The notes under the pieces: generated by a model
The model's database searches: none
Told to the model about the DNA's origin: nothing
The model's input: the letters and a program-made list of their open reading frames with translations, nothing else
Made by a program: the position numbers and the translations under genes
Origin: Chamaelirium japonicum
Lineage: Eukaryota > Streptophyta > Magnoliopsida > Liliales > Melanthiaceae
NCBI GenBank assembly: GCA_947650365.1
Contig: OX393552.1
Location: 18,750,351 to 18,814,350 of the forward strand
Length of the DNA stretch: 64,000 bases
Reading direction: 5' to 3'
Shown: positions 49,001 to 61,612 of the stretch, piece by piece
Layout: the number at the start of each line of letters is the position of its first letter
Numbering within the stretch: the first letter of the stretch is position 1

Positions 49001-52000
49001 GTCCTGTTTTTCCTCTCCGCTACACCGTTGGATTGGGAAGTGTAAGGAGCTGTGACTTCATGGAGTATTCCATAGTCATCACAGTACTCACTTAACTCAT
49101 TTGAGGTGTACTCCCCTCCTCGGTCTGACCTAAGGATCTTAATGGTTTCGTCTAATTGGTTTTCAACCAGAGCTCTGTAAATTTTAAATTTACTGAGTAC
49201 TTCATCCTTAGTTTTAATAAGGTATAGGTGGCAATATTTTGAAGCGTCATCTATGAACGTTACAAAATATCTATTGCCACCTCTCGAGGTTCTCCCAGAA
49301 TCACAGACATCGCTGTGAATTAATTCAAGTATATGGGAGTCTCGATCGATGGTTTTAAAGGATTTCTTAGGTTGTTTCGCTTCTACGCATATCTCGCACT
49401 TGTCGAGATTCCTAGTATCGGATTTGGGAATGATATTTAGGGTCATGAGTTTCTTAATAGAATTATAATTTACATGACCTAGCCTTTGGTGCCAAGTGAC
49501 CGAAGACTCAATATTCAGAATTGTGGACGAAGGATTATAAACATTTAATTTAAACAAACCATCACAAAGAAATCCTTTTCCAATAAAATTCATTCCCTTG
49601 GTGATTACAATCTTATTAGATTCAAATACAAGCTTATAGCCCTGTTGGACTAATAAGGACCCACTAATTAAATTTCTCCTAATCTCCGGAACGTGGTGGA
49701 CTCCGCGCAGGGTCAGGGTCTTCTCCGACGTCAGCTTCAGGTCGATCCGTCCTATCCCTAGCACACGAGCCTCAGCATTGTTCCCCATGCTTACAGCTCC
49801 TCCACCTGAGACCTGATAGGTGGAAAACAAAGATTGATCAGAGCAAACATGAATGTTAGCTCCTGTGTCAATCCACCAATCAAATGCTTGAAAGGTCATG
49901 TTAACTTCAGGGGTGAAGAGAACAGACCTGAAAGCGGTCCCAGAAGAGCCAGCTCCAGAGGTCACCATGTTGACTTGGGAGCCGGGTGGCGTTGGACCAT
50001 TTCTTCTTGGATTTGGAGGTGGTGCTGTCTTCTTGTAGAAGCATTGGTTGGCCATGTGATTGGTCCGACCGGAGACGTAGCAGCAACTCACTCCTTCCTT
50101 CTTTTGGTCCTTGGGATGGTTTGGGTTATGGTTGCTATGGTATGGCTTCTTGGTATATGGCTTAGGCTTAGGGTGGAAGGGTTTCTTCTGGAACTTATGT
50201 CTAGGTTTTTGGAATGGCTTAGACGGTTGACCCTCTATGTTGTTGACCTTGGGTTTGGATTCAGAGGATCCCTTTTCCCTAAGCCTATGTTGCTCCTCAA
50301 TTCTAATAGAGTTTAGAACTTGAGTTAGGGTTATGTCACCTTGGGTATGACTTAGGTGCTTAGAGAATTCAGACCAAGAAGCAGGTAGTTTATCTATAAA
50401 ATAGGCTATCTGGAAGGTTTCATTAAGGGTGGAACCATTAGTCTTCAGATGTTGGACTAGGTTCTCAAACTCATGAATTTGATCATTCATGGGTTTGGAG
50501 TCAACCATTTTGAAGCTGTTGAAGTCAGACGCTTTGAAGCGTTTTACTCCAGCATCATCTAGGTCATACTTACGCTCTAGGGTATCCCATAGGTCCTTAG
50601 GGTTTTGAATGGTATAGTAGATATCATATAGTCTATCAGATAAGGCTCCTAGGATCCTATGAAGGCCATGGTAGTTGATTTCTTCTGGGGTCCTAGTGGG
50701 AATGCCAGAAGTTGGTTCAGTTTCAGGTTGAGAAGTGGAGGCTCGGGTACGACGAGTTTGGCTAGACCCATTGGATACTCTTGGTGCGGTTTCACCTATG
50801 GCTGATAATAACCCAAGTGTGGTTAGCCAGAAACGCATCTGGTTCTGCCACCTCTTGAAGTTAGACCCGTCAAACTTTTCGGGTTTGGCACTAAGGGTTT
50901 CACGGTTTGGTGAGGCCATTTCGGACCAAAGTAAGGAGTTGAAATCTGTGGATTGAAAAATAACTTTTGTCAAATTTAAAGCACACTGTATAGATTTGAC
51001 TTTCAGAAGTCAAAATGAAACTTCCAAATCCTAACGGCCAGATGGGCTCCAGGTAGGAGGTGGAGCACTAGGCTCGCTCAAATACCAAGCTATCTTGGGC
51101 AATTTAATGCCGGTTTGTCAAGCCTTTCTAGACACCGTAGGCAGTGGAATATTCCAAATAATGACTCTTAGTCTTTTCTAAAATGTATGTTTTTAATTAA
51201 CTTTTGTAGAAAACTAATTTTGACTAATAACTATAGCGCAACTTTTAACAACTAATAATGAAACTATTTATTCTATGATAACAATACTAACAAAATGAAA
51301 TGCACAATAGAATGATAATATGATGAACGATTAAATATACAATAAGTTTCTTGGATTGTTGGAAATCTAATCGTTCTAAAGTAGCAAATTTAGGATTTAA
51401 TCAAATTATTAATATTAAAATTGATTAGCAAATGTTATTTTCGCAAACAAGGACAAGTCACAAATTTCTTTTAGAAATTGTATGCCAAGGCAGAGCGGGT
51501 TCTATGGAACCGTCATTCACCTTGCCGAACTTTTCTAAAAGAGAGAAATAATCTATCTCTAATTATTTAGGTTTCTCTATTAGATGCAAATAGATTAATT
51601 AGAATGATAGGACAAGAGTAGAGTTAGAAACTCTGGCCTGTGGTCGAAACGTGCTAGGCACTGTCCCAAGAAACTTATTGCCCCCCTCGTGCGGGTCTCG
51701 TGGCAATGGTTCTCGGAGATATGACGACCCCGGTCAGGCGACCTCCTTCTCGTCGGCACGACTTCAAGAAGGTATTGCGAACCTCGTGAACTTTCAGGAA
51801 CCCAGCGACTCGGATGACGATCTTCTTGAATCGGGGAGGCAGCACCGCAGCAGAGCCTTGGTCCGAGAGAGGGAGTCTCTTCGGAGCAAAGGGGCAGCAC
51901 AACAGCACCACGATACGAGAGAATGGAAGACGGAGAGGCAGTAAGCAGGGAGGAATTTTAATTTTCGGAGTGTACCCATCCCATGGCTGCACCGGGCCTT

Positions 52001-60521: not shown

Positions 60522-61612
60522 AATGGCGTCGTTGCCTACGTAAAGGCCGTGGAGAGGATTCACAAGTAAGGCTATATAAAAGAACGAAGGTTAGGTACGT
60601 TTTCTACAAAACTTCTCTTATTTCGTAATCATAGTAATTAGCTTAAATCGATTAATGTGCAAACTTTAATCTTAGTCAAAAAAAAAATTGCATTCAACCT
60701 TGCAAAGTTGTCGCCGACTCGGCACATACGACTCTTAAAGTTGTATGTGTGCTTAAGCGTGGGGTGTACACTCAACTTTTGCATTGATATTAACCATTTT
60801 TTAGGGTGCTACAGGTCATGCATTGAATAGCTTGAAAAGAACGGGAGCTGACCACCCGTCCTTTATCAACTGCTAAGCAAAGTTTATTTAGTGTCTGCAC
60901 TTTTTATTTCTTATGTGCTACATTGTGCATTAGTTTAGAATCATTTGCATAAAATAATCTTAAGGGCAATCACCCTCATAAGATACGGTTGGGATTTCAT
61001 CACCTATCCGTAGCCCAAAAATAACCACCTTGCATTTAACCTAAGCCTAATTAACATTAAAAGTCATTAGACGTTGGCCTTAGGGTTTCTCGAGCTCAAT
61101 AGGCTCTTGGAAAGGAAGCGGCGAAAGGCCACTCCACTGAATAGTCTTGTCGTTAGTAATGTCTAGGTAAAGTCTTATGACAACCTAAAAAACTGTTACG
61201 GGTATTGTGGAAATCCATACACCCCGGGACTTACCTGGTTATTAATTACTTGACCCTTTTATATAAGTGGTAAGTCCAAGCTCAATCTAGAAAAGGCTAC
61301 GGTTTTTCAAAGTTTATTCTATGTTATTGACGACGCCAACGATCGGCTTGACAAACCGGCCACAAAGCTGCCTAAGGAAACTTGCTATTTAAGTGAGCCT
61401 AGTGCTCCACCTCCTTCCTGGAACTGATCTGGTTGTTGTCATTTTTGAGGAATATTCCTTTGAACTTCTAAAGCCTGATCTCGAAAAGAGAATAGGAGCT
61501 GGTTTAGTTAATCAACTTAGGACAAATAAAATTATTATACCTTCTCACATAAAATAGTTAATTCAAATAAACTTGCTGTGTTATTGTTCAATTTGAGATT
61601 TTTATATAGTGC
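60522..61612 (+). other. Untranslated leader of the Athila/Tat-type element
   Basis: Long leader between the primer site and gag, usual in this group. It contains 61345-61423, which matches the copia leader at 51124-51047 (minus strand). Confidence 0.65.

Follow-up and report, generated by a model that had tools for sequence, protein, structure and literature searches.

The window, by which we mean the whole stretch of 64,000 nucleotides of Chamaelirium japonicum DNA that was analysed (positions 18,750,351-18,814,350 of contig OX393552.1), contains a Ty1/copia retrotransposon on its minus strand and, on its plus strand, the first part of an Athila-like Ty3/gypsy element that continues into the 10 kb directly following the window (locus L021). 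The features on which the analysis is centred are listed below in window coordinates.

45200-52475, minus strand: copia element, defined by its LTRs, target duplication and domains
51357-52475, minus strand: copia 5' LTR, TGTTGG...CCAACA, 97.5% identical to 45200-46329, with GGTCA duplication
50920-51356, minus strand: copia leader of 437 nt, free of ATG until the gag ATG at 50919
50992-51124, core 51047-51124, minus strand: copia leader block, matched by blastn to 61345-61481, with a sharp left edge at GGCTTGAC
48277-50919, minus strand: copia gag and integrase frame, with Retrotran_gag_2, gag_pre-integrs and rve
47050-48276, minus strand: copia reverse transcriptase frame, with RVT_2, separated from the gag and integrase frame by an in-frame stop
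45200-46329, minus strand: copia 3' LTR, 97.5% identical to the 5' LTR, with GGTCA duplication
58155-60522, plus strand: Athila-like 5' LTR of 2.37 kb, TGTTGAG...TTATCA, 95% identical to L021:5304-6212 and 6792-8358, with ATAAT duplication
60523-61612, plus strand: Athila-like leader, extending to the first gag-frame ATG at 61613, with a primer-binding-like TGGCGTCGTTGCC at its start
61345-61481, core 61345-61423, plus strand: Athila-like leader block, recognised by blastn and by alignment of the leaders
61903-62475, plus strand: Athila-like gag-domain frame, with Retrotrans_gag, the gag frame being broken upstream of the domain

The domain order of both elements agrees with the superfamilies to which the first-pass annotation of this DNA had assigned them. 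The minus-strand element has a gag of copia type (Retrotran_gag_2) and an rve domain lying ahead of RVT_2; in the plus-strand element, Retrotrans_gag is followed by pieces of reverse transcriptase, RNase H and integrase in L021, beyond the end of the window, where the 3' LTR is also found in two pieces matching at 95%. The target duplications, GGTCA for copia and ATAAT for the Athila-like element, are present on both sides of the respective element. The label Athila-like rests on the long LTR, the long leader and the TGGCGTCGTTGCC site, which fit what we take to be the traits of Athila. Assuming 1.3e-8 changes per site annually, the differences between LTRs suggest that the copia element was inserted about 1 million years ago and the Athila-like element about 1.9 million years ago. 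Inside the 3' LTR of the latter (L021:5304-8358) there is an inverted copy of approximately its first 400 bases (L021:6199-6595), without counterpart in the 5' LTR.

The remainder of the window holds features of other kinds. Immediately beyond the copia element, an open frame (43527-44099) appears by eye to be part of a D-2-hydroxyglutarate dehydrogenase gene and has no Pfam match. A LINE remnant at 5487-11020 of the plus strand retains parts of a zinc knuckle, an endonuclease, RVT_1 and zf-RVT, spread over adjacent frames. An array of a 65-base unit occupies 39746-40542, with about 12 copies at 80% and higher-order periods of 129 and 259, while a separate pair of 65-base repeats at 42753-42877 is unlike it in sequence; a further tandem array, at 38218-38353, repeats the 11-base unit GGATACGGGCG and also shows higher periods, of 22, 33 and 54. 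Finally, an imperfect inverted repeat at 53235-53685 has 86-base arms at 78%, as found in small non-autonomous transposons.

The two retrotransposons carry the same segment in their leaders. Its sense orientation and its placement between LTR and gag had been described correctly for both elements in the first-pass annotation, and the 16- and 14-base motifs reported there are exact in sequence, position and strand; identity had been estimated by eye as about 75-80% over 78 bp, but the shared stretch is longer, approximately 130 bp, with about 75% identity over its full length. When the window was compared with itself by blastn, positions 51124-50992 of the minus strand paired with 61345-61481 of the plus strand over 138 columns, with 75.4% identity and an E value of 1.5e-17, and there was no second match between the copia and the Athila-like element inside the window. 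Local alignment of leader versus leader produced a score of 103, against a maximum of 34 and a mean of 23 for 500 dinucleotide-shuffled pairs. The left edge of the block is abrupt, at GGCTTGAC, and on the right the similarity trails off some 130 bases further on. Its start lies 205 nt upstream of the gag ATG in copia and 268 nt upstream of the first gag-frame ATG in the Athila-like element. Majority sequences of the two families are closer to each other than the two window copies are, being identical in 101 of 128 columns and in 74 of the first 88. The collinear block common to the two leaders is therefore confirmed as real: it is one homologous segment in two unrelated families of LTR retrotransposons.

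The possibility that the block exists only in these two copies, which the first-pass annotation had named as counting against its idea, does not hold. With up to two mismatches, the 20-base core is present at 1361 places (656 plus 705) in the genome of 1.52 Gb, versus 2 places (0 plus 2) for the reversed core pattern. We examined the first 50 of 100 listed places with the exact core, all on one contig (C1), and every one lies at the same spot of a leader, 45 in copia and 5 in Athila-like elements (28 and 2 among the first 30, 17 and 3 among the next 20). A core variant normally absent from both families occurs at three places, all within copia copies. Confinement to leaders, raised in the same annotation as a point to verify, is thus supported by 50 of 50 exact and 3 of 3 variant places in the two families, for a sample made up of exact matches to the core or to its variant. 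Longer queries gave concordant results in samples that are biased, since scores exist for the best candidates only: with the 105-base copia block, the best 40 of 1331 candidates were scored and the 20 fetched all align with the copia element, and with the 152-base Athila block the best 40 of 1276 were scored and the 30 fetched are all Athila-like. On C1, four pairs of exact core places on the same strand are spaced by 6.1-7.7 kb, about the length of one copia element, and may represent tandem elements sharing an LTR. The exact core had no match in viral and bacterial/archaeal sequence collections.

Other retrotransposon families of the genome present a different picture. An unfiltered profile search, which recovered the window copies with E values of 2e-44 and 1.4e-38, found the block in none of 20 other copia leaders. 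These leaders were chosen by eye for spread from 150 scored Retrotran_gag_2 places, each sample comprising 800 bases upstream of the domain match and 300 of gag, a reach that longer leaders exceed. They form about seven groups by blastn, one of which is recognisably related in gag to the block-bearing copia (34% over 132 aa); a closer copia relative, with 51% protein identity, is present in a separate locus (L022). On C1, none of 91 places with the exact core lies within 7 kb of 25 PF14223 (Retrotran_gag_2) or 13 PF03732 (Retrotrans_gag) places. One additional profile match in the window, at 47272-47309 of the plus strand and antisense in the copia pol, has an E value of 0.027 and was taken as chance.

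The descent of the block was followed in an alignment of 125 columns with 43 chosen rows, 23 from copia and 20 from Athila-like elements. Invariant columns that are identical in both families number 68, and 17 columns are fixed differences, five of these being gap columns; the remaining 40 vary with a shared base, and 12 of them differ in the commonest base. The copia and Athila-like rows separate from each other within the alignment and, together with the 17 fixed differences, this separation fits one old transfer that would not have been followed by recent exchange. As in mosaic elements, the relationship of the segment differs from that of the rest of the element and one of its edges is sharp.

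Among 28 copia copies, the block (80 bases, with the core 20-mer omitted) has 0.030 differences per site versus 0.122 over the aligned 1.74 kb; it is without gaps, and none of 142 overlapping raw windows is less variable. For comparison, codon positions 1, 2 and 3 of gag differ by 0.111, 0.104 and 0.150 in the copia copies. This raw result is weakened because the copies were picked by their exact 20-mer core: in a sampling control with other 20-mers, 22 of 261 windows, each set against its own mean, equalled or exceeded the block in conservation, which places the block in the lowest 8%. The conservation is consequently suggestive, and constraint on the block is likely.

The window copies fold no better than shuffled sequences (z of -0.37 and +0.46), and the covarying base pairs that the first-pass annotation had proposed to look for give a mixed answer. 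In our own four-helix fold, 98.0% of the cells are paired and the changes are mostly of the G-U kind, a pattern that C-to-T mutation alone could produce; shuffles match its covariation in 265 of 500 cases. The fold of RNAalifold, which has three helices in common with the four-helix model and was predicted from the same alignment on which it was scored, reaches a covariation score of 0.139 versus 0.124 in shuffles, a value attained by none of 500, and of 0.126 when the partners are slid by one column. Its two-sided cells are 12 versus 5.2 in shuffles (0 of 500), ten of them reflecting one change in related rows, but two-sided pairs are 3 versus 2.0 (132 of 500) and the types of pairs are ordinary (187 of 500). 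Covariation would thus argue weakly, and in a manner dependent on the fold, for a structured block. Two other roles were considered by eye and rejected. A short open stretch runs over the core, but to the eye it appears frameshifted and broken by stops between the families, which speaks against a peptide-coding block; as for an intron donor, gaps between block and gag ATG amount to at most 2% in 28 copia copies, with no spliced copy among them.

These results pose an evolutionary question: By what path did two superfamilies with unrelated proteins come to possess the same piece of leader? Recombination is the simplest answer, because there is homology with no other shared sequence seen, in sense orientation and in the same compartment, between elements whose proteins are unrelated. 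We lean, with slightly better than even confidence, towards a cis-acting RNA segment that was passed between the superfamilies, likeliest by template switching, and was then kept upstream of gag for a role facing the host. The ancestor of one family would have gained the block from the other family, or the two ancestors would have obtained it from a donor that they shared, when reverse transcriptase switched templates between RNAs of different superfamilies that were presumably enclosed in one particle; afterwards, the block would have multiplied within each family while being retained just upstream of gag. No chimeric copy with a breakpoint came to notice among the copies handled. Because the block adjoins two unrelated Gags, a host partner seems preferable to a packaging signal specific for Gag, and the block might act via host factors most likely in the translation of gag, or else in exporting or stabilising the long RNA. 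There are 8 ATGs upstream of gag in the Athila-like leader, all of them opening short frames that close again, which makes an aid to translation plausible; against this, the copia leader, having none, would need no bypass of this sort. The distances to the gag ATGs and this contrast in upstream ATGs lead us to put translation as first choice and packaging as second. The functional RNA module gained by template switching that the first-pass annotation had envisaged is upheld in part: exchange is the best remaining explanation, but function is only plausible, with conservation in the lowest 8% and mixed covariation.

The alternatives differ in how much of the evidence they can accommodate. A signal for packaging or dimerisation, by which one family would parasitise the particles of the other through bearing its signal, as has been suggested for known pairs of autonomous and non-autonomous elements, is in keeping with the placement of the block between LTR and gag, with its many copies and with the short cis sequences shared by unlike partners that PMC9744471 describes within gypsy. 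We nonetheless regard it as unlikely, since each of the two window elements has gag and pol domains proper to its own superfamily, their LTR ends beyond TGTTG and their sequences after the LTR differ, and a Gag-specific signal should, by this reasoning, fail with two unrelated Gags. A third element or a host transcript might have been the source for both ancestors, given that the copia and Athila-like rows, lacking an outgroup, are compatible with either direction of transfer; this is rather improbable, as no third carrier was found among the 20 copia leaders and the 25 PF14223 and 13 PF03732 places on C1 all lie farther than 7 kb from the exact cores there.

The sharp left edge and the limited length of about 130 bp could also recall a SINE-like small element, inserted independently or once in the leader of each ancestor. 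The small inserted element listed in the first-pass annotation is, however, unsupported: the 50 exact and three variant core places are all leaders of the two families, so that none of the 53 examined lies dispersed outside them, and in both block regions no tRNA and no Rfam match at E<=1 turned up, hence no sign of a tRNA, 7SL or 5S head, the whole window likewise having no Rfam match to known RNA. To this origin we assign a very low probability. Convergence, which had also been listed, is ruled out by the length and collinearity of the block, over about 130 bp and with a score of 103 where shuffles do not exceed 34, and the probability of chance or convergence is practically negligible. Exchange of an RNA segment between the superfamilies therefore continues to be the reading that we prefer.

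Partial parallels exist in known systems, as far as the pertinent reports describe them. Within gypsy, LTR families that are otherwise unlike keep short cis sequences in common, which have been read as signs of cross-mobilisation (PMC9744471); those families are all gypsy and share LTR ends, the primer binding site and a GC-rich LTR motif, whereas here the sharing is across superfamilies and concerns the internal leader. The route we propose, in which reverse transcription passes from one RNA to another within a particle, is the same as that proposed for the template-switch complexes of Triticeae and maize, where BARE2 and VejuL apparently arose from a jump between co-packaged RNAs (PMC1950507), but the complexes described there join similar elements with whole LTRs and do not bridge superfamilies, unlike the approximately 130 bp common to copia and gypsy. 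Sireviruses resemble the present case in having conserved non-coding motifs that are retained in diverged plant copia elements; these are other motifs, located elsewhere (polypurine tracts, LTR repeats), and belong to one copia genus (PMC2829016). Cassandra, too, is an LTR element that carries an RNA module, in its case a 5S-related sequence inside the LTR (PMC10853983), while for the block described here Rfam has no matching family. Searches of the literature on copia-gypsy sharing of leaders or modules, on exchange between them and on plant leader signals found, at the level of titles and the openings of abstracts, no report of this kind, subscription journals being mostly outside their scope, nor did a search on the Angio-domain of plant SINEs find a report of such a copia-gypsy block.

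It is customary to regard the copia and gypsy superfamilies as distinct lineages with no leader sequence in common; that two of their families have a homologous block in the leader implies that genetic exchange crossed the border between them and that its product spread to many copies. A broader proposition, which we advance only tentatively and hold to be possible rather than probable, is that plant Ty1/copia and Ty3/gypsy elements pass among themselves a portable RNA module that faces the host and works beside any Gag; rare copying between dissimilar RNAs would then build their leaders out of interchangeable parts. If the block does work, it would constitute a small RNA element functional beside two unrelated Gag proteins, and it would offer a handle on the translation, export and packaging of plant retrotransposon RNA, processes that in our judgement are poorly known.
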